Position numbers and translations under genes: made by a program
Assembly: GCF_025717535.1 (NCBI RefSeq)
Contig: NZ_JAJIRO010000002.1
Coordinates: forward strand, 124,001-188,000
From: Paucibacter sp. Y2R2-4
GTDB taxonomy: Bacteria; Pseudomonadota; Gammaproteobacteria; Burkholderiales; Burkholderiaceae_C
Direction: 5' to 3'
Length of the DNA: 64,000 bases
Notes under the pieces: model-generated
Seen by the model: the letters and a program-made list of their open reading frames with translations, nothing else
The model's database searches: none
What the model was told of the DNA's origin: nothing
Shown: piece after piece, positions 26,871 through 44,813 of the stretch
How the letters are laid out: every line of letters starts with the position of its first letter
Numbering within the stretch: position 1 is the stretch's first letter

Positions 26871-28190
26871 TCAGCGATGCAGCGGCAGGCGCGCCCTGAC
26901 CTGGTGTCGACCGTCCACTTGAGCAAACGACAGCTCACCCCCCAAACGCAAGACGGTCTGCTGCACGATGGCCAAGCCCAGACCGAAGCCTGGCAGGTTT
27001 CGGCTGGCATCACCTCGGGCAAAAGCTTCCATCAAGCGGCCATCACCGCCGGGTGGCAGTCCCGGCCCCGCGTCTGAAACGATCAGCAAGGCCCAGTCCT
27101 GCTCAGGCCTAGAAATTTCAACCGCGACCGGCGCACCGCCGTGCTTGATCGCGTTGTCGATCAAGTTGGCGATCAAGCGCTCGATCAACAAGCCGTGAGC
27201 CTTGCTCAGCAGCAACACCTCAGGCGCATGCAAGACCAAGTCCTGCGCTGGGCGATCAAACCCGGCCACGGCTCGCTGAGCCGCGATGACGAGGTCCACC
27301 TCTTCACCCAGATCGACCGCACTGGTACGCACAAACTCCAAAAAACTGGCGGTGAGCCGGTCGGCATGATCGACATTGCGCGTGATGCTGGCCACTCCGT
27401 CCGCGTTATCGGCCGACTCCGGCAGCATCTCGGCGGCCAAGCGGATGCGACTCAAAGGGCTGCGCAAGTCATGCGACACACCGGCCAGCAAGAGCGCACG
27501 TTCGCGCTCGTTGCGCTGCAGGCGCTCGGCCAAGCTTTGGTAGGCGGCTGCAATGGCGACCAACTCCGGCGGTGCCTTGCTGGCTTTCGGACTGAGTTCG
27601 AAAGTGCCCTGCTGATGACCGCTCTCCGCATGGGCCTGCATGCGCAAACGCAACTGCGCCAATGGCCCCGTCAAGTCTCGAGCAAAACTCCTGCTGACCC
27701 AGGCAATCACCAACAGCATCAGGACCAGACCCACAGTCATCCGAGGCGCCCAATGCGGCAAGGCCGCGGTGGCAGCGGCACTCATCCAAAATGATGAGGT
27801 TTCGCCCGCCAAGCGCGCATGCACCCACAGCCGGATTTGGCCCTTGCTGCAATTGATCCAGACCTGATCCGCCGCCACGCCAAGCCGCGCTAACTCTTGA
27901 ATGAATTGACTGGGCGCCGGCCAATCGCTCACTTGCAGCTTGAGCCCTTCAGGCGGCCCCGCATCACGCCGTATGTCAGTGACCAGCCCGTATGCCGGCA
28001 ATTCGATGGGACTGTTGACACGAAGGGATTGAACCACCTGCGGCGCCAAAGAGGCCGCCAAATGGGGCGCCAACAATTGGTTGCGCTCCACCACCAACAG
28101 TCCACCAAAGACGAGGACAAAGCCGGCCAGCAGCACCCCCTGAGCCAGCACCAAACGCAGAAACAGCGAATCAAAGCGTTTTGGGATCAT
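26871..28190 (-). CDS. EnvZ-type sensor histidine kinase
   Basis: A 439-residue inner-membrane kinase. Helices at about 10-35 and 155-175 flank a roughly 115-residue periplasmic domain; a HAMP region follows (SFARDLTGPLAQLRLRM). The H-box is LAGVSHDLRSPLSRIRLAAEML, the N-box NLIDNAIKHGG, and the G boxes DAGPGLPPG and GFGLGLAIVQQTV. It partners the OmpR-type regulator encoded upstream, whose gene it overlaps by 20 bp. A decayed copy of its 5' end appears at about 30505-30560. The signal sensed is unknown. The ATG at 28190 is the family-like start. Confidence 0.92.
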   Translation of the reverse strand: MIPKRFDSLFLRLVLAQGVLLAGFVLVFGGLLVVERNQLLAPHLAASLAPQVVQSLRVNSPIELPAYGLVTDIRRDAGPPEGLKLQVSDWPAPSQFIQELARLGVAADQVWINCSKGQIRLWVHARLAGETSSFWMSAAATAALPHWAPRMTVGLVLMLLVIAWVSRSFARDLTGPLAQLRLRMQAHAESGHQQGTFELSPKASKAPPELVAIAAAYQSLAERLQRNERERALLLAGVSHDLRSPLSRIRLAAEMLPESADNADGVASITRNVDHADRLTASFLEFVRTSAVDLGEEVDLVIAAQRAVAGFDRPAQDLVLHAPEVLLLSKAHGLLIERLIANLIDNAIKHGGAPVAVEISRPEQDWALLIVSDAGPGLPPGGDGRLMEAFARGDASRNLPGFGLGLAIVQQTVLRLGGELSFAQVDGRHQVRARLPLHR

Positions 28191-28911
28191 CCGCACCCAG
28201 GCTCTGTGACGGTGCGGCGCCTCTTGGCACAAAGGCATAACCCTCACCTCGAACGGTTTCTATCCAATCACTGTTCGGCAAGGCCTGAGCCAGGCGACGG
28301 CGTAAGCGGCCCACCTGCACATCCACTGTCCGGTCTTGGGGTCGATAGCTGCCCGCCTGCACCGCTTCACTCAGTTGCTCACGCGAAACCGCTTGACCGG
28401 GGGTGCGGATCAACTCCAGCAAAAGCCGGAACTCAATGCCGGTGAGCACGATCACTTGCTCGTTCGCCAGCACTTCGCGGCGCAGCAAATTGATGCTTAG
28501 CGGGCCGAAACTCCATGTGGTGGTCGGCTGCGCCGGCACCGGCGTTTGGCGTCTGATCAGGGCTCGCAAGCGTGCCACCAATTCGCGCTTCTCAAACGGC
28601 TTGGCCAGGTAGTCGTCAGCCCCCAACTCCAAACCCAGCACACGGTCAAAAGGGTCGCCGCGCGCGGTCAGCATCAGGATTCCTAAGCTGGGGTACGCCG
28701 CCCGCCAACGCCTGCACAAATCCATGCCACTGGCATCGGGCAACATCACATCGAGCAGCACCACCGCCGGCAGCGCCTCAGTCAGCGCTGCTTCCGCCTG
28801 GGCGGCATTGTGAGCCGCACGCACCGCCCAACCCTCCGCTTGCAAAAGGCGAAGCAACATGGCGGAGAGCTCGACATCGTCGTCGACCAAGAGCAAAGAA
28901 GGCTGAGACAT
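28171..28911 (-). CDS. OmpR-family response regulator
   Basis: A 246-residue regulator. The receiver domain has the acidic triplet at residues 10-12, phosphoacceptor Asp54 (LLDVMLPDASG) and Lys104 (YLAKPF). The winged-helix domain contains LTGIEFRLLLELIRTPGQAVSREQL and RTVDVQVGRLRRRL. It starts at ATG 28911 (a TTG in frame at 28914 is possible). The gene overlaps the kinase gene. About 100-160 bp upstream is a 61-bp element with TGTC motifs every 10 bp, the spacing expected for an OmpR-type dimer site, suggesting autoregulation. A degenerate copy of its DNA-binding domain exists at 30549-30827. Confidence 0.94.
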   Translation of the reverse strand: MSQPSLLLVDDDVELSAMLLRLLQAEGWAVRAAHNAAQAEAALTEALPAVVLLDVMLPDASGMDLCRRWRAAYPSLGILMLTARGDPFDRVLGLELGADDYLAKPFEKRELVARLRALIRRQTPVPAQPTTTWSFGPLSINLLRREVLANEQVIVLTGIEFRLLLELIRTPGQAVSREQLSEAVQAGSYRPQDRTVDVQVGRLRRRLAQALPNSDWIETVRGEGYAFVPRGAAPSQSLGADDPKTL

Positions 28912-29007
28912 CAAGAGCGCCGCCGAAGAGAAAAGATGTAAAGGCCAAGACAGCAGAGCGCTCGATCGTAAGCCAAACAGCGCTAAGCCTTGTACGACAT
29001 TGCCGCA

Positions 29008-29068
29008 GCAAATGCGACAGCGCTGTCATGAATTGTCGCGTTATGTCGCACACGCCGAGGGCGAATCT
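29008..29068. promoter_or_regulatory. 61-bp element, copy A (candidate response-regulator site)
   Basis: This segment is identical over 61 bp to 30840-30900. It contains the palindrome GACAGCGCTGTC (29016-29027) and TGTC at 29024, 29034 and 29044, the latter two as TGTCGC, exactly 10 bp apart, with the inverted GCGACA at 29014-29019. OmpR-family regulators bind tandem hexamers spaced 10-11 bp. It lies between the regulator gene (97 bp away, minus strand) and the HAF-repeat PEP-CTERM gene (plus strand). The rest of 28912-29315 shows no gene. Confidence 0.6.
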
Positions 29069-29315
29069 TCCGACACTCTCTCGGCAGCGCTGCTTGGGCC
29101 GTAAGTCGAGGGGCGCGGCAGTGCAAGTCGCCAGCTTTGTCACTTGTTCGTCCGCCAGCGATCGAGAACTCAAAAACCATGCTCAGGGAAAAGATGGTGC
29201 GCAAATTGGACTTTCTTAACCGCTGTGAATCGAAGCACTCGACTTGCATGTCACGTTCTTGCGATCTCCATCCCAACCATCAAAGCTCCTAAAACGGAGC
29301 CAGGGAAGAAACATC

Positions 29316-30275
29316 ATGATCAATTCTTCGTCTATTGCGCGTGCCGCCCTGGGTGGCTTGACTGGACTCTTGCTATGGGGTCCGACCGCGGCTTCGGCCA
29401 GCACGAACTACAGCGTCCCAGCAGATTTCAATCGACCCGGGTTTGCCTCAACGCAGCCCTGGGATATCAATGACAACGGTGTCATCGTCGGTCGATCCGA
29501 TGACGAAAGCTTTCTCTACAGCGCCGGGGCGTTTACCAGCTTCAGTCACCCAGACGGCGCGAGCAGCACTGGATTAACTGGGGTCGCTAATGATGGCACG
29601 CTGGTCGGCAGCTACTGGACGGCGGTGCCCGACGGTCCCAGTATTCAACATAGCTTCATCTACTCGGCTGGCAACTTCACGGCCTTTGAGATTGCCGGCT
29701 CCAGCGGCACATCGATTCGAAACATCTCGTCAAACGCAAGGTATCTGACTGGAACTGCCAACAACGCAACTGGAGGCGTCTATGCCTTCGCCTTTGACCG
29801 TTTGACCCAAACCTTGACCAAGCTCAGTGTGGCGGGCGACAACAGTTCTATCGCTCAAGGAGCCAACTCATCGGGTCTCGTCACCGGAAGTTTCACTCGC
29901 CCAGCCAATGCCGGTGGATCCGGGGCCTTTATCGTCGACCTGAACACCATGACTCGCACCGAGTACTTTGGTATTGCTGGCATTGGCGTCCCTCGTTTTC
30001 GCGACATCAATGACTCGGGCGTGGTCTCTGGCTTTGCGGGCGCGACAGCAATCGTCGGCAAACCCGGCGATTGGGCCGTATTCACTCCCACCGACAACAA
30101 TTCGATGGGAAGCTACGGGCTCAACAATAGCGGCGCACTTGTGGGCTGGACTCAAGACGGCACGACATCCAACTACAGCGGCTGGGTTGCCACACCGGTC
30201 CCTGAGCCAGCGAGTTGGGCATTGATGGCACTCGGCCTGTCGGGTCTGGCGCTACGCAAACGCCGCCAAACCTGA
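29316..30275 (+). CDS. HAF-repeat PEP-CTERM protein
   Basis: A 319-residue exported protein. A signal peptide (about 1-28) ends near ASAS. The body contains repeated units of the HAF type, such as DINDNGVIVGRSDDESFLYSAG, GVANDGTLVGSYW, DINDSGVVSGFAG and GLNNSGALVGWTQDG, likely a beta-propeller-like or beta-rich surface domain. The C terminus is a PEP-CTERM signal (VPEPASW, hydrophobic helix, RKRRQ), processed by an exosortase encoded elsewhere. The ATG at 29316 follows an AGGGAAG ribosome-binding site; the frame extending to 29244 is rejected. It lies downstream of the 61-bp element and divergent from the two-component genes. Confidence 0.85.
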   Translation: MINSSSIARAALGGLTGLLLWGPTAASASTNYSVPADFNRPGFASTQPWDINDNGVIVGRSDDESFLYSAGAFTSFSHPDGASSTGLTGVANDGTLVGSYWTAVPDGPSIQHSFIYSAGNFTAFEIAGSSGTSIRNISSNARYLTGTANNATGGVYAFAFDRLTQTLTKLSVAGDNSSIAQGANSSGLVTGSFTRPANAGGSGAFIVDLNTMTRTEYFGIAGIGVPRFRDINDSGVVSGFAGATAIVGKPGDWAVFTPTDNNSMGSYGLNNSGALVGWTQDGTTSNYSGWVATPVPEPASWALMALGLSGLALRKRRQT

Positions 30276-30504
30276 TTTCCAAGCTTGGCTGGACGGGGCT
30301 TATCGCCTGAATGTCAGTCCACCCCGCGTCCACCGTTCATGAAGGTTTGTCTTCAAAAGCCAGTGGTCGACTGGCCCCTAGCGCTGGGTCACTAGATCGA
30401 AGACCGCGATCTCTTGTTCACGGCGAACGACACACAAGCAGATACCGTGCGCCGGCTTGCATAGCGGCACGCTGAGCGCCATGGGCCGAGACCCTGTCAC
30501 GCTG
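30276..30504. other. Gene-free stretch between PEP-CTERM gene and pseudogene
   Basis: No convincing open frame or strong terminator. Parts near 30470-30504 may be a further eroded continuation of the kinase copy, but the similarity fades and cannot be asserted. Confidence 0.4.
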
Positions 30505-30827
30505 GCTGACAGCAGTACCTGAGCCCACACAAACTCAGGACTAGCAAATCAAGTCGCTTCAGTCTCCTGCACCTCTGTGTCCACTGAGGGCGCAGCGCCT
30601 CGCTGCACAAACGCATAGTCACTAAACGCACGACTTCGATCCAATCGCTGTTCCTCAGGGCGAGAACAGCCGACGATGCATCGTCCCCACCTGCCAAACC
30701 ACAGCAGGGCTCCGAGGCGGCTGCCGCCGGCCCCACGCGTTTTCACCCCTGGCTCACGCAATGCCGCTGGACCGAAAGTGCGGACCAATTCCAGCAAGAG
30801 CCTGAACTCTATGCCGGCAGCCGCCAA
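30505..30827 (-). pseudogene. Decayed partial copy of the two-component locus
   Basis: On the minus strand, GIEFRLLLELVRTFGPAALRE (split across 30749-30815) matches the DNA-binding domain of the regulator at 28171-28911; further on YAFVQRGAAPS matches YAFVPRGAAPS in the same frame, while NSDWIE lies in another frame, showing frameshifts. Nucleotides about 30505-30560 (CAGCAGTACCTGAGCC, CACAAACTCAGG, GCAAATCAAG) align with the start of the kinase gene near 28130-28180. The copy then jumps from the regulator's middle (near 28445) to its upstream region (near 29005), so the receiver domain was lost. No intact product is possible. Confidence 0.8.
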
Positions 30828-30839
30828 GACAGTGCAGCG

Positions 30840-30900
30840 GCAAATGCGACAGCGCTGTCATGAATTGTCGCGTTATGTCGCACACGCCGAGGGCGAATCT
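30840..30900. promoter_or_regulatory. 61-bp element, copy B upstream of the giant PEP-CTERM gene
   Basis: Base-for-base identical to 29008-29068, while the flanking duplicated coding sequence is heavily decayed. TGTC motifs at 30856, 30866 and 30876 keep the 10-bp spacing, and the palindrome GACAGCGCTGTC is at 30848-30859. It lies 127 bp upstream of the ATG at 31027. The intact sequence within a degenerate copy suggests it is functional, probably as a binding site for the OmpR-type regulator encoded at 28171-28911. Confidence 0.6.
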
Positions 30901-31026
30901 CCGGACACTGCCTTCGCTGTGAATCGATGCCTAGGTGACCCCAATGCTGACCCTTTGTCAGGCGAGTGCTCCGGGCAATACAGCGAACTCACTCACACAT
31001 TGATCTTGAGCCTACAGGGAGCATTC

Positions 31027-34000
31027 ATGAACACCACCCCTTCCATCGGGAATCGCCACGCCCATCACGTCCATCCTTCCTTGCCGCGCAAACTTCATCC
31101 GTCCGCGCTGTGCTTGGCTCTGGCCACAGCGCTAGGCATGGGTATCGCAAATCCGGCTGAAGCTGCCGTGTGGACCTGGACCGGTGCGACCACCACGCCC
31201 GGAGGCCCCACTGCCTTGTGGAGCACGGCCGGCAACTGGAGCGGCGCCACGGCCGGCGTGCCCAAGGACGGTGACTCCCTGATCTTCAACGGCAACAAGG
31301 CACCGCTGCAAATCATCGACATCTCCGGCACCACCGCCCAGGTCTTGCAACTGAAGGACATTGCCTTCACCGCCGATGCCACCGACTTCATCCTGACGCC
31401 GAAAGCATCGGCACCCACCACCCTGAAGCTGAGCGGCAACATCAGCAATCTGGGCCAGCGGCAGACCTTCAACGTGGCCGTGGAGGCTATGGGCGGCAGC
31501 GCCGAGCAGATCTGGAATGGCGGCAGCAACGGCATGCTGCTCAGCAATGCCTGGCTTTCCGGTAGCAACACCAAGCTGACCCTCAGCAACAATGTGGCAA
31601 TTCAAAAGGGCGGCTCCATCAACCTGGGCAGGCAGGCGGGTGATGCCCTGACGCTCAACATCACCTCGGGCAGCTCGGCCAGCGTCAACCTGCTGAGCGT
31701 GGGCCAGACCGCACTGAGCCAGGGCACTATCGTGGCCGACGGCACCAACTCCAAGCTGCTAAGCAACAGCCTGGACATCGGCGGCTTCGGCACCGGCCTG
31801 CTGACCGTGCAGAACGGCGCCGAGGTCACCAACAGCGGCATCGGCAAGTTGGGCGCCGACACGGGCAGCAGCGGCACGGGCAAGGTCACAGGCGCGGGTT
31901 CGCGCTGGGTCAACACCGGTGGCGGCTTTGAAGTGGGCGACCAGGGCAGCGGCAACCTCAGCATCGAGGCCGGCGGCCAGCTCAACACCTTCAACAGTCA
32001 TCTGGGCTATGGCGTCAATGGCAAGGGCACCGTCCAGGTCAGCGGCACCGGTTCCAAATGGCTCACGCAAGACCTGACGGTCGGCCATGCCGGCAGCGGC
32101 AGCCTGTCGATCGACAAAGGCGGCGTGGTCAGCAACAGCAGCGGCGCACTGGGCGCGCTGCAAGGCAGCCGAGGCACGGCGACGGTCAGCGGCAATGGCT
32201 CGCAGTGGGCCCTCAGCGCCGACCTGCTGGTCGCTGGCGCCGGCTCGGGTACGCTGAGCATTGCCGACGGCGGCAAGGTCAGCGCACGCACGCTGACGAT
32301 TGGCGGTCAAGGCACGGTCACCCTCGATAGCGGAACCTTGCAAATCGCCAACGCTGTGGTGAACAGTGGGGGCAACTTCAGCTGGATCCAGGGCACGCTG
32401 GCCTACACCGGCAACGCCGCTCTCGGCTCGGCCCTGCTGCCCTCGTTCAGCAACCTCGCCGGCGGCAAGACCTTGAACGTGGCTCAGGTGCTGACGATTG
32501 ACTCCGCCAGCAGCCTGACCCTCAGCGGCGGCAAGGCCAGCGCCGGCAGCCTGGTCTTGCAGGGTCAAGCCGAGCTGGGCAGCTTCAGCGAGCTCAGCGT
32601 CGGTACCGGGGGTATGAACAGCAGCGGCGTGCTGCTCCTTAGCGGCGGCACGCTGCGCACCGCAGGCACGGCGGTGAACGCAGGCGTGTTGGACGGCGTG
32701 GGCACCATCACCGGCAGCGGCGGCTTCAACAACGCCGGCTTGCTGCGCCAAGGCGCCGGCACTCTGGTTCTGAGCAGCACCGGTCTCAACGAAAACACAG
32801 GCAGCTGGGACCTGCAGGCCGGCCGTAACCTCAGCCTGCAAGGCGCGGACCTGAACAACCGCGGCAGCCTAAATCTGAACAACGGCTTCGTGACCGGCAG
32901 CGCTGCCTTGGTCAACGGCGCGCAGGGCAGCATCAGCGGCAGCGGCCGCATCAGCACGGCCTTCAGCAACAACGGCAGCCTGATCGTCGACGCCGGCCGC
33001 ACCCAGATTGACGCTGCCTTCGTCAACCGGGGTCAGGTCTTGCTGAGCAGCAATGCCGCCAATCTGGCCGGCGGCCAGATCGACAACCGCGGCCTGATCC
33101 AGGGCTTCGGCAAGGTCAACAACAACCTCGCCCAAGCCGACAGCAGCGGCAGCATCGAAGCCCAAGGCGGCACGCTGACCCTGGCCGGCCAGATCGTCGG
33201 TTCCAATCGCGGCATTCTGGCTGCGGGCAATGGCGGCAAGCTGCTGATCAGCCAAGGCCTGGCCAGCAATGCCGGCCAGATCCAGCTCAGTGGCGGCACG
33301 CTGGACAACAACGGCAAAGCCCTGGTCAACGAGGCCGGTGGCAGCATCAACGGATTCGGCAGCCTGCGTGCCGGCACGCTGAGCAACAAGGGCCAGATCT
33401 TCCTGAGTGGCGGCACTTCAGAGCTGCGCACCGACATCGTGGCCAGCGCTGGCAGCGAGATCGTGCTCTCGGGCCAAAGCAACACCAGCTTCTACGGCAC
33501 GGTGGAAATCATGAAAGACGCCGAGTTGCGCGTCTCCGAAGGCTCGGTGGCCACCTTTGCCGGCCTGGTCAAGCAGCGCACCGGCTCCGACGTCAATGGT
33601 GATGGCAAGATGTTCTTCGAAGGTGGCCTGGCGCTGGGCAACTCGCCAGGCTACGGCTACATCCAAGGCTCGGTCACTTTTGCCAGCAGCAACTTTTACG
33701 AGGCCGAGATTGGCGGCACCGCTGCCTGCACCGTGGTGACCTGCGCTCTGGGCTCCCCGCTGGTGGACAGCAGCTTTGACAAGCTGGTGATCGGCGGCGC
33801 CTTCAAGTTCGGCGGCACCTTGACGCTGAAATCTTGGAATGGCTTTGTGGCACAAGCCGGCCAGAGTTTTGACCTGCTGGACTGGGGCAGCAGCAGCGGC
33901 ACATTCAAGGCCATCGATGCCTCGGGACTCACTCTCGCCGCGGGCACCCAGTTGGACTACAGCCAGCTCTACACCAACGGCACGATCTCGGTGACGGCTG

Positions 34001-34092
34001 TGCCTGAGCCCGAAACCTATGCTCTGATGCTGGCTGGGCTCGCTGCCATTGCCTTCGTGGCACGCCGGCGCAGCGCCAAGACGCAGGCCTGA
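31027..34092 (+). CDS. Large PEP-CTERM protein with T5SS/PEP-CTERM-associated repeats
   Basis: A 1021-residue exported, Gly/Ser/Asn-rich protein. A long signal segment ends near NPAEA; the start AVWTWTGATTTPGGPTALWSTAGNW is typical of passenger domains with autotransporter-associated beta-strand repeats. Between about 200 and 430 are recurring units of the form GSGxVxGxGSxWxxxxxLxVGxxGxGxLxIxxGGxV, the T5SS/PEP-CTERM-associated repeat. The C terminus VPEPETYALMLAGLAAIAFVARRRS is a PEP-CTERM signal. It is likely a beta-helical surface or matrix protein; adhesion is inferred. AGGGAG lies 6 nt before the ATG at 31027; the longer frame from 30676 overlaps the pseudogene and is rejected. The 61-bp regulatory element lies upstream. 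Confidence 0.88.
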   Translation: MNTTPSIGNRHAHHVHPSLPRKLHPSALCLALATALGMGIANPAEAAVWTWTGATTTPGGPTALWSTAGNWSGATAGVPKDGDSLIFNGNKAPLQIIDISGTTAQVLQLKDIAFTADATDFILTPKASAPTTLKLSGNISNLGQRQTFNVAVEAMGGSAEQIWNGGSNGMLLSNAWLSGSNTKLTLSNNVAIQKGGSINLGRQAGDALTLNITSGSSASVNLLSVGQTALSQGTIVADGTNSKLLSNSLDIGGFGTGLLTVQNGAEVTNSGIGKLGADTGSSGTGKVTGAGSRWVNTGGGFEVGDQGSGNLSIEAGGQLNTFNSHLGYGVNGKGTVQVSGTGSKWLTQDLTVGHAGSGSLSIDKGGVVSNSSGALGALQGSRGTATVSGNGSQWALSADLLVAGAGSGTLSIADGGKVSARTLTIGGQGTVTLDSGTLQIANAVVNSGGNFSWIQGTLAYTGNAALGSALLPSFSNLAGGKTLNVAQVLTIDSASSLTLSGGKASAGSLVLQGQAELGSFSELSVGTGGMNSSGVLLLSGGTLRTAGTAVNAGVLDGVGTITGSGGFNNAGLLRQGAGTLVLSSTGLNENTGSWDLQAGRNLSLQGADLNNRGSLNLNNGFVTGSAALVNGAQGSISGSGRISTAFSNNGSLIVDAGRTQIDAAFVNRGQVLLSSNAANLAGGQIDNRGLIQGFGKVNNNLAQADSSGSIEAQGGTLTLAGQIVGSNRGILAAGNGGKLLISQGLASNAGQIQLSGGTLDNNGKALVNEAGGSINGFGSLRAGTLSNKGQIFLSGGTSELRTDIVASAGSEIVLSGQSNTSFYGTVEIMKDAELRVSEGSVATFAGLVKQRTGSDVNGDGKMFFEGGLALGNSPGYGYIQGSVTFASSNFYEAEIGGTAACTVVTCALGSPLVDSSFDKLVIGGAFKFGGTLTLKSWNGFVAQAGQSFDLLDWGSSSGTFKAIDASGLTLAAGTQLDYSQLYTNGTISVTAVPEPETYALMLAGLAAIAFVARRRSAKTQA

Positions 34093-34139: not shown

Positions 34140-35012
34140 ATGGACAGCCCCTTGCCCTGGTTGCTGGCCCTGCTCGGCCTGGTCGTGTTCAGTGCCACGC
34201 TCGAGGGATTGGTGCGCAGCTTCGTGCTGCGCCTGCCCTATGACTGGGCGGCGTTTGCGGCCTCATTGGCTGATTTTGCCGGCCGCCGCGCCATCGACGG
34301 CCTGGGCTTGTCTTTGGCCGCGCCTTTGCTGAATTGGGTCTACGCCCATCGACTGCAGACGCTGACCCTGACCGAGCCGCTCGACTACTTGCTGCTGTTC
34401 TTGGGGCAAGAGCTCTGTTTCTACGGTTATCACCGTGCAGCCCACCGTGTGCGCTGGTTTTGGGCCACCCATGCGGTGCACCACTCCCCCAATGAGTTAA
34501 GCCTAGCGGCGGCCCTGCGCTTGGGCTGGACCGGCAAGCTCAGCGGCACGGCGATCTTTTTTCTGCCCTTGATCTGGCTGGGCTTCTCGCCGCAGGCCGT
34601 CGCGGCCGCGGTGGCCGGCAATCTGCTGTATCAATTCTGGCTGCATGCCACCTGGATACCCAAGCTGCCCGCCGCTTTCGAGTGGGTTTTCAACACACCC
34701 TCGCACCACCGCGTGCACCACGGCTGCAATAGCGAATACCTAGACTGTAATTTCGGCGGCGTGCTGATCGTGTTTGACCGCCTTTTCGGCAGCTTTGTTG
34801 AGGAGCGCAAGGATCTCGAGATCCGCTATGGGCTGAGCACGCCGCTGTACAGCTACAACCCATTGCAAATCGCCACCCATGCCTGGGCAGCTCTGGCAAG
34901 AGATGTGTGGGGAGCGAAAAGCAGCGGGGCTGTCTTGAAAACACTTTTGGGGCCGCCCGATCATGGGCCGAAGCAGCAAGACGAAAGACGCAGCACGAAT
35001 CGGCTCCAATGA
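34140..35012 (+). CDS. Sterol desaturase/fatty acid hydroxylase family protein
   Basis: A 290-residue membrane enzyme of the di-iron hydroxylase superfamily. Histidine clusters are visible: HRAAHRVRWFWATHAVHHSPNE and, after two more helices, HHRVHHG. These bind the two irons that activate oxygen to hydroxylate a lipid. Four or more helices surround them. The substrate is unknown; bacterial members act on fatty acids, sterols or carotenoids. It lies 47 bp after the giant PEP-CTERM gene, preceded by GAAAGG, and could be cotranscribed with it. Confidence 0.88.
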   Translation: MDSPLPWLLALLGLVVFSATLEGLVRSFVLRLPYDWAAFAASLADFAGRRAIDGLGLSLAAPLLNWVYAHRLQTLTLTEPLDYLLLFLGQELCFYGYHRAAHRVRWFWATHAVHHSPNELSLAAALRLGWTGKLSGTAIFFLPLIWLGFSPQAVAAAVAGNLLYQFWLHATWIPKLPAAFEWVFNTPSHHRVHHGCNSEYLDCNFGGVLIVFDRLFGSFVEERKDLEIRYGLSTPLYSYNPLQIATHAWAALARDVWGAKSSGAVLKTLLGPPDHGPKQQDERRSTNRLQ

Positions 35013-43238: not shown

Positions 43239-44813
43239 ATGGATCGACGAGAGTTTCTGCGTCTGAGTTCGAGCACGGCGCTAAGCGGAGCGCTGGCCAG
43301 CGGCTTGGTCGCCTGCGGCGGTGGTGGCGGAAGCACTGAAGCTCCGGCCCCGCCCCCCAATCCCATACCCCCCACTCCACCCGAGCCCAATGGGCCGGCC
43401 GAGTCCGAATGGACGGCGCTCAGCCAGCAGTTCAAAGGCGCTGTGGTGCGCAGCGCACATGCCGACTATGAGCGACTGCGTTTGCCGGCCAATGCACGCT
43501 ATGACGCCCTTCGCCCCCTGGCACTGCTGCGCTGTGCCAACAGCAGCGATGTGCAGGCCGGCCTCGAATTCGCGCGCCGCTTAAAACTGCCACTCGCAGC
43601 ACGAGGCGGCGGCCACAGCTATATCGGCAACTCCACAGGCAACGGCAGCTTGATCATCGACGTCGGTGCGATGAACCAAGTGAGTTTGCAGGGCGAAACC
43701 GCCGTGGTCGGCGCTGGCGCCACGCTGGCCGATGTCTACGGCGCGCTCTTGACCCAAGGCCGCGGCCTCCCCTCCGGCAGCTGCTTGAGCGTAGGCATTG
43801 CCGGCATCACCCAAGGCGGTGGCTTTGGTGTGCTGGACCGGGCTTATGGCCTGAGCTGCGATGTGCTGCGCGCGGCACGGCTGGTCACGGCCGATGGCCG
43901 CGAACTGCTTTGCGATGAGAGCCAAAACAGCGACTTGTTCTGGGCCCTGCGCGGCGGCGGTGGCGGCAACTTTGGCATCGTCACCGAGTTCAGCTTCCAG
44001 ACTCATGCAGTCCAGACCTTGACTCAGTTCTCCGCCGACTTCCAACTCAGCGATCTGGCCGCGATCTTGGCGGCCTGGACCGCCTGGCCCCAGACCATGC
44101 CCGATGCCATCTGGTCACAGCTGCTGCTGACGCCGCAAGGCACTTGCAGGGTCTGGGGTATTTGCGTTGGCAGCGAGGCGCTCTTGCAAGCGCCTTGGCA
44201 AGCGCTGCTGACCCGCATCGGCCGGCCACCGCTGGCGCCGCCTACCGTTCAAAATCGTCGTTATGAAGACGTCATGCTGGGCGACTGCGTCAGCTCCGCT
44301 TTGGCCTCATGCCACCTCCCCAGCCAGAACCCGGCCGGCCGCTTGGGGCGAGTCGCGATGGCGGCCAGCTCAGATTTCTTTGACAAGGCCCTGGACGCCA
44401 GCGCCGCCGCGGCCATGGCCGAGGTCTTGCGCAGCGCCATGGATGAGCGGCGTTCCAGCGGACGCAGTGGCAGCGTCATCATGAATCTGATGGGCGGCGC
44501 CATTGGCCGCATCGCCCACGACGCCACCGCCTTTGTGCACCGCCAAGCCCAGTTCAGCGCCCAGTACTACTGCGACCAGTTCCCGGGCAGCCCCGCCAGC
44601 AGCCTGACTGAGGCCGACACCTGGGCCCAAGGCATGCGCGAAAAAATGAATCCCTGGAGCAGCGGTCGGGCCTATCAGAACTATCTGAACGCCTCGCTGC
44701 CTAATCCCTTGCAAGCCCTTTACGGCAGCAATCTCGCTCGGCTACAAGCGATCAAGGCCAGTGTGGATCCGCAAGGGCTGTTCAAGCAAAGCTTGGGCTT
44801 GTTCAATGCTTGA
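43239..44813 (+). CDS. Tat-exported FAD-binding oxidoreductase (berberine-bridge type)
   Basis: A 524-residue flavoprotein. The N terminus DRREFLRLSSSTALSGALASGLVAC combines a twin-arginine motif with a lipobox (LVAC), then a Gly/Pro-rich spacer, so it is probably a Tat-exported lipoprotein. The FAD_binding_4 domain has RGGGHSY (His for 8-alpha linkage) and SGSCLSVGIAG (Cys for 6-S linkage), suggesting bicovalent FAD; the BBE domain is the C-terminal YQNYLNAS...LQAIKASVDPQGLF region. Substrates of homologues are sugars or alkaloid-like compounds; here unknown. An AAGGGAGG site precedes the ATG. GGTATT/AATACC (43167-43189) is an inverted repeat upstream. Confidence 0.88.
   Translation: MDRREFLRLSSSTALSGALASGLVACGGGGGSTEAPAPPPNPIPPTPPEPNGPAESEWTALSQQFKGAVVRSAHADYERLRLPANARYDALRPLALLRCANSSDVQAGLEFARRLKLPLAARGGGHSYIGNSTGNGSLIIDVGAMNQVSLQGETAVVGAGATLADVYGALLTQGRGLPSGSCLSVGIAGITQGGGFGVLDRAYGLSCDVLRAARLVTADGRELLCDESQNSDLFWALRGGGGGNFGIVTEFSFQTHAVQTLTQFSADFQLSDLAAILAAWTAWPQTMPDAIWSQLLLTPQGTCRVWGICVGSEALLQAPWQALLTRIGRPPLAPPTVQNRRYEDVMLGDCVSSALASCHLPSQNPAGRLGRVAMAASSDFFDKALDASAAAAMAEVLRSAMDERRSSGRSGSVIMNLMGGAIGRIAHDATAFVHRQAQFSAQYYCDQFPGSPASSLTEADTWAQGMREKMNPWSSGRAYQNYLNASLPNPLQALYGSNLARLQAIKASVDPQGLFKQSLGLFNA

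Follow-up and report, generated by a model that had tools for sequence, protein, structure and literature searches.

The duplicated regulator locus

In a 64,000-nucleotide stretch of the Paucibacter sp. Y2R2-4 genome (genome label G000), here called the window and used for all coordinates, a two-component regulator locus occurs once intact and once as a fragment, each time next to a gene for a surface-sorted protein of the PEP-CTERM class. The intact part comprises an EnvZ-like sensor histidine kinase of 439 residues (26871..28190, minus strand; Pfam HisKA and HATPase_c) and an OmpR/PhoB-type response regulator of 246 residues (28171..28911, minus strand; Pfam Response_reg and Trans_reg_C). 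The first copy of a control block (28996..29077, located by blastn) separates the regulator from the gene of a small PEP-CTERM protein of 319 residues (29316..30275, plus strand; Pfam). After a spacer (30276..30500) follow an apparent pseudogene remnant that holds codons 1-23 of the kinase together with the DNA-binding C-terminal portion of the regulator (30501..30817, minus strand, delimited by alignment), the second control block (30828..30909) and, behind a leader (30910..31026, plus strand), the gene of a giant PEP-CTERM protein of 1021 residues with T5SS/PEP-CTERM-associated repeats (31027..34092, plus strand). An FA_hydroxylase-family gene (34140..35012, plus strand; Pfam) comes directly after it. 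Both proteins score above the PF07589 cut-off of 20.7, the giant one with 30.9 bits and the small one with 28.6 bits.

The original prediction for this locus held that 30505-30900 aligns colinearly with 28130-29068, and a blastn comparison of 30281-31060 with the whole window recovers this match as two blocks. The coding block (30510-30817 versus 28131-28442) is 68% identical at an expect value (E) of 7e-18; it comprises 218 of 324 identical positions under gentler scoring (30501-30817 versus 28122-28442) and scores 228, against a maximum of 62 among 300 shuffles. The control block (30828-30909 versus 28996-29077) is identical at 77 of 82 positions (E 7e-31), including the longest identical run between the copies, 61 bp (29008-29068 and 30840-30900). 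The predicted composition of the fragment was borne out as well: its left part contains the kinase start and the DNA-binding half of the regulator, the receiver part expected to be missing at about 28445-29005 is absent from about 28443 to 28995, the upstream region of the regulator is preserved as the 82-bp block, and the giant gene starts 117 bp past that block. Partial duplication of the regulator locus is thereby confirmed. Across the whole G000 genome, the control block was found nowhere beyond its two places at E <= 0.001, and a search with a 19-base core allowing up to three mismatches again returned the same two places only. The best score of the spacer 30276-30500 against the kinase gene was 60, which 3 of 300 shuffles reached, and a kinase origin of this spacer is unproven; after the small gene, it also contains a 23-base near repeat (30288-30310; 21/23, E 0.003) of the distant positions 43832-43854.

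The regulator combines a receiver domain (PF00072, 3e-24) with the Trans_reg_C winged helix (PF00486, 2e-21), the architecture of the OmpR/PhoB type. Its best NCBIfam match is OmpR (NF007005), but at 209.8 bits it falls below the curated equivalog cut-off of 331, and we therefore call it OmpR-like rather than OmpR. The kinase likewise matches EnvZ best (NF007004), with 157.6 bits against a cut-off of 415. Close orthologues of the regulator, 74-92% identical, occur in five other genomes of the genus (6 of 18 including G000), and the kinase orthologue adjoins the regulator in G304, G301, G308, G299, and G302. The best-matching named loci come from a Burkholderiales metagenome-assembled genome (L074) and from Ideonella (L073). 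Three further loci, L062 (G302), L065 (G305), and L066 (G310), carry regulator-kinase homologues of 55-62% identity and no upstream repeat of the kind described below; as G302 holds both kinds, L062 would be a separate paralogue there.

Gene order in relatives and origin of the arrangement

In four relatives (G304, G301, G308, and G299), one intact kinase-regulator pair is divergent to a homologue of the giant gene with the block in between, and 289-742 bp separate the regulator from the first aligned part of that homologue; the contigs of G299 and G308 break off within the homologue, whose PEP-CTERM end lies outside the sequence. An intact second pair beside the giant-gene homologue, which the original prediction suggested looking for in related genomes, occurs in none of these four, each of which holds one pair. 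In G302, the regulator faces genes for a cysteine-rich protein and an FA_hydroxylase, and the giant-gene homologue lies farther out. Because four relatives have the 82-bp block between the pair and the giant-gene homologue, it is probably the two-way control region of the ancestral locus. To the left of block copy 1, the sequence matches the leader of the regulator in relatives. To the right of copy 2, it matches the giant-gene leaders of G304 (score 77) and G301 (52), neither score being reached by any of 300 shuffles, and to a lesser degree those of G299 (37; 2/300) and G308 (30; 11/300), which suggests that the giant gene kept its own ancestral promoter. For the right flank of copy 1, the scores against G304, G301, G299, and G308 were reached by 6, 7, 77, and 124 of 300 shuffles each, and a faint likeness to the G304 and G301 leaders remains.

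The small PEP-CTERM gene appears to be the newcomer. No homologue of it was found in G304, G301, G308, G299, or G302, and its homologues elsewhere in G000 and in G307, G300, G297, and G228 (39%) do not stand beside an orthologue of the regulator. At L068 (G300:C2) and L069 (G297:C1), in genomes without a close regulator orthologue, both PEP-CTERM genes have homologues that cluster together, and L071 (G228:C22) has a weak small-protein homologue (36-39%) with another OmpR-type regulator (43%) and a kinase ~2.9 kb away. The history originally proposed was duplication of a kinase-regulator-PEP-CTERM unit, followed by loss of the regulator copy and retention of its promoter. Duplication of the regulator and control region, regulator loss, and promoter retention agree with our results, but the PEP-CTERM gene was not duplicated along with them, as the small and giant proteins do not match each other (genome searches at E <= 1e-20 and 1e-10).

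We consider it probable that an EnvZ/OmpR-like locus was partly duplicated and that the second regulator decayed while its operator was kept by selection, so that two unrelated PEP-CTERM genes now carry the same switch. The order of events that we infer would be the following: (i) the EnvZ/OmpR-like locus once stood back to back with the giant PEP-CTERM gene and shared with it one two-way control region of ~82 bp; (ii) in the lineage of G000, the segment running from the kinase start through the regulator to the control region was duplicated; (iii) the unrelated small PEP-CTERM gene ended up between the two copies; (iv) in the left copy, the pair stayed functional and came to face the small gene; and (v) in the right copy, the regulator lost its receiver half and its start and decayed neutrally, while the control region was kept by selection for the giant gene.

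The same end state could also have arisen by single-crossover insertion of a circle or fragment carrying regulator, block, and small PEP-CTERM gene via the shared regulator segment. The small gene and one block would then be foreign, with the truncated regulator left on the far side. We regard this as a serious possibility, though one that we lean against. An insertion-duplication would leave the very order seen here, from the full pair and its block through the new gene to the truncated pair, the second block, and the old gene. The distribution of small-gene homologues just described, missing from the four synteny relatives and present elsewhere in G000 and in the four other genomes, fits it as well. 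The 238 bp upstream of the small gene are also just marginally like the giant leader (9/300 shuffles; 15/16 matches between 29221-29236 and 30915-30930), a similarity too slight to be used further. However, no other among the 18 genus genomes searched places the small gene next to a regulator orthologue, and comparison of the small-gene flanks with five homologue loci gave one 14-base match at most. The intact regulator also does not look foreign, because it is about as close to its G304 counterpart (79.6% of bases) as is the neighbouring peptidase gene (81.6%).

Whichever way the duplication came about, the giant gene itself may have been inserted between older partners. An FA_hydroxylase homologue is divergent to the regulator at 12 of 32 loci, among which two belong to the genus and 22 have flanks of at most 1500 bp; the other divergent partners are cysteine-rich proteins (8), other small secreted proteins (8), EF-hand proteins (2), and the giant protein (5). 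Since the giant gene in the window is followed directly by the FA_hydroxylase gene, whose homologues in other genera are divergent partners of the regulator, it would appear to have come between these two old partners.

The control block, its copies, and the regulator remnant

Both blocks contain tandem direct repeats with about 10-bp spacing upstream of a target, as in OmpR-type operators, with TGTC at 29024, 29034, and 29044 and GACA at 28996 and 29016 in copy 1, and TGTC at 30856, 30866, and 30876 and GACA at 30828 and 30848 in copy 2. Eleven blocks align without gaps, and their invariant letters are ACAGC, GTC or G.C at 10-base steps, and GAnACT ~25 bases on. More generally, YGTC-N6-YGTC occurs within 250 bp upstream of the regulator at 27 of 33 loci, with 0.6 expected from shuffles; these loci are the window, five orthologues and three distant homologues from the genus, the two named loci, and 22 family loci, and outside the genus the count is 21 of 24. 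The six loci without it are L062, L065, L066, L073, L214, and L224, of which L073 and L214 probably represent one locus counted twice, as their upstream sequences are identical. In form, the upstream repeat is what would be expected of an autoregulated OmpR-type system, and it is a putative binding site. An unusually long array, five CGTC/TGTC repeats at exact 10-base steps, lies upstream of the regulator at L206 (G296:C4:136491-136538). Of the 21 genomes from other genera that match the regulator at E <= 1e-70, eight, none of them used in training, were searched with a block model; in five (G269, G380, G195, G268, and G296; E 4e-6 to 6e-4), its best genome-wide match lies just upstream of the regulator.

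Blocks also occur away from the regulator. A search of six genomes with block copy 2 returned 22 places, namely 2 in the window, 4 orthologous, and 16 elsewhere. The two strong off-locus blocks, both in G299 (E 1e-10 and 4e-10), precede PEP-CTERM genes (Pfam), and so do three of the nine that were viewed among 14 weak matches (E 0.02-0.8): one in G304:C1 (Pfam) and two before giant-gene homologues at G299:C45 and G302:C63. The variant block GACAGTGCTGTCGCATTTTGTCGCATTACGTCGCAG, which precedes the giant-gene homologues at L174 (G299:C45:246727) and L165 (G302:C63:40619), may be another class of operator, serving this regulator or a related one. Across the 18 genus genomes, the block model gave ten strong matches (E <= 8e-15), which are confined to the six genomes that have a close regulator orthologue; in the other twelve, the best match had an E of 0.04 among the candidates scored, which were 150 of ~1600-2700 first-pass candidates per genome. 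G269 and G195 each have a second block (E 2e-4 and 3e-4) away from the regulator, before genes for a small secreted protein and an FA_hydroxylase-like protein (open frames), which suggests that the block was copied elsewhere too. No colinear regulator remnant was found beside off-locus blocks in eight comparisons with the regulator locus; in G269, a 47-base inverted match to the regulator start (77%, E 2e-4; L237 1061-1107) lies ~400 bp from the second block.

From these patterns we infer that the regulator binds the blocks, and that it activates rather than represses in response to a signal. The phosphorylated regulator would bind both blocks at their TGTC repeats, which are spaced 10 bp apart and followed by the conserved GAnACT element, perhaps a -10 box, and one signal would thus reach the regulator's own gene and two PEP-CTERM genes. 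The repeat arrays span 29016-29047 and 30848-30879, and the element reads GACACT at 29072 and 30904. That the block instead serves autoregulation only, with the PEP-CTERM genes as accidental neighbours, would agree with its widest conservation lying upstream of the regulator itself and with the varied neighbours in other genera. We consider this unlikely, because copy 2 is conserved although no live regulator adjoins it, blocks distant from the regulator are found before PEP-CTERM genes in both G299 and G304, and the second copies in G269 and G195 stand before a secreted-protein/FA_hydroxylase gene pair away from the regulator.

Block and remnant differ sharply in how much they have changed. 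The two block copies agree at 78 of 84 positions and the coding remnant agrees with its counterpart at 205 of 315; were the block evolving neutrally at the coding rate, its identity would have P = 2e-9, and a given run of 61 bases would be identical throughout with P = 4e-12. Copy 2 is 83-87% identical to the orthologous blocks of the four relatives. The 82-bp block is apparently conserved because it still drives the giant gene. Gene conversion between the copies could also produce 94% identity, and the copies are indeed slightly more alike (78/84) than either is to the orthologues (at most 77/84). It is nevertheless a quite improbable explanation of the conservation, as the same positions are kept across species with one block at the locus and in unlinked copies before PEP-CTERM genes.

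In the remnant, mismatches to the intact regulator are spread almost evenly over codon positions 1, 2, and 3 (29/30/37; n = 89, 87, and 89), in contrast to the G304 orthologue (11/6/39) and four other orthologues (13-16, 8-11, and 37-47). It gives no Pfam match even at E 10, where the intact counterpart segment scores 2e-20. The frameshifts originally reported are present locally, as four single-base deletions in a MAFFT alignment, three of them within the regulator (the blastn alignment has 10 gap positions), but those three total one codon and leave a 92-codon frame open from 30827 to 30549. Given the even codon-position mismatches, the missing receiver, and the lack of a detectable domain, the coding remnant is to all appearances a neutrally decayed pseudogene. 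It is highly improbable that it is a live gene whose product, a receiver-less DNA-binding protein, competes for the blocks, since this would accord with the open frame and its still regulator-like ends (41% over 85 aligned columns) but conflicts with the codon-position pattern, the Pfam silence, and an unrecognisable stretch in the alignment that presumably corresponds to the recognition helix. The remnant groups with the intact copy in a tree (support 84/83), and three bases are common to these two copies only among the seven sequences aligned, being absent from the five other genomes. With ~45% of the regulator's fourfold sites differing between G000 and G304, the duplication would seem to be about as old as the species splits.

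Several results weigh against the reading that we prefer, a duplicated locus whose retained operator links the regulator to PEP-CTERM genes. (i) On descent, the remnant is best placed as sister to the intact copy, but not decisively so, as an approximately unbiased test excludes just two of nine other placements. (ii) On block detection, the search with copy 2 missed the block that G302 itself possesses, six of the nine weak matches viewed lie inside long open frames, and a plain DNA search with copy 1 of 299 family genomes, a sample that lacks most close relatives and lists four other species of the genus, all without a close orthologue, found only the two copies of G000. All ten strong model matches are among the 11 training sequences, so that this list is not independent and its new information is the absence from twelve genomes. 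In three of the eight untrained genomes the best model match did not fall at the regulator; the G064 match (E 0.02) stands before a lipoprotein-like gene close to the kinase-regulator pair, and the model search gave nothing convincing in G066 or G047. (iii) On the PEP-CTERM link, G000 has 2 blocks against 83 PEP-CTERM matches, and the regulon of the OmpR-like regulator looks small. The block faces a cysteine-rich secreted protein in G302 and an EF-hand protein in L074, and identified neighbours in other genera are FA_hydroxylase, cysteine-rich, and other small secreted proteins; as block neighbours differ elsewhere, the PEP-CTERM link would be confined to this genus.

Significance and comparison with known systems

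A decayed duplicate is in itself ordinary; what deserves attention is that a conserved operator is accompanied by a candidate regulator that does not belong to the PrsK/PrsR scheme. Tentatively, in a judgment that is close to balanced, the locus may represent a second, undescribed route of PEP-CTERM control, which uses an OmpR-like system instead of PrsK/PrsR with sigma-54 and gains targets by copying its own two-way operator. If so, each separation of the regulator from its divergent partner would involve a duplication of the block, with one copy kept on either side, as in the window and in G269 and G195, and the remnant in the window would be the fossil of one such operator-copying event. 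A pseudogene and a conserved switch, both from one duplication, share a stretch of about 400 bp, which would make the locus a natural experiment that shows what selection kept. In the part of Haft 2006 consulted (PMC1569441), more regulators and DNA motifs of PEP-CTERM systems are expected to be found, as many PEP-CTERM genes lack the upstream site class described there (PMC1569441). The block and the candidate regulator beside it offer a directly testable example in one genus.

In the portions of the literature surveyed, including PMC3684757, PMC3333781, PMC9850573, and PMC1569441, we found no description of the system reported here. EmbRS of Rubrivivax was rejected as a counterpart, as its regulator is LuxR-type according to the section consulted (PMC3684757). 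Closer is DVUA0057 of Desulfovibrio vulgaris, a response regulator for which five predicted PEP-CTERM targets were enriched in DNA-affinity-purified-chip (DAP-chip) experiments, by the excerpts available (PMC3333781). It differs in belonging to a plasmid-borne, exopolysaccharide-related operon and in resting on the Haft 2006 prediction, and, unlike here, those excerpts mention no duplicated operator (PMC3333781).

PrsK/PrsR are the known regulators of PEP-CTERM genes (Haft 2006, PMC1569441, in part), and pepA is RpoN-dependent, as stated in the part of PMC9850573 consulted. As far as these sources describe it, that system, like ours, is a two-component one, and in both a conserved DNA site lies in front of PEP-CTERM genes. 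The regulator here is OmpR-like, however; only Response_reg and Trans_reg_C were found in it, and the sigma-54 interaction domain of the PrsR type was not. Nor was the -24(GG)/-12(GC) pair of a PrsR-type promoter seen, by eye, among the invariant columns of the 11 blocks. PrsR itself (TIGR02915 over cut-off) is found in 16 of the 18 genus genomes, both with and without the OmpR-like regulator, and is missing in G310 and G299; G299, without a PrsR over the cut-off, has three strong blocks.

The system also resembles EnvZ/OmpR, in domain make-up, in the best family matches of both proteins, and in the tandem ~10-bp direct repeats. OmpR binds tandem direct repeats of about 10 bp, and porins are among its targets. 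The system described here differs in that both proteins score far under the equivalog cut-offs and in that the neighbouring, putative targets are PEP-CTERM or other secreted proteins instead of porins.

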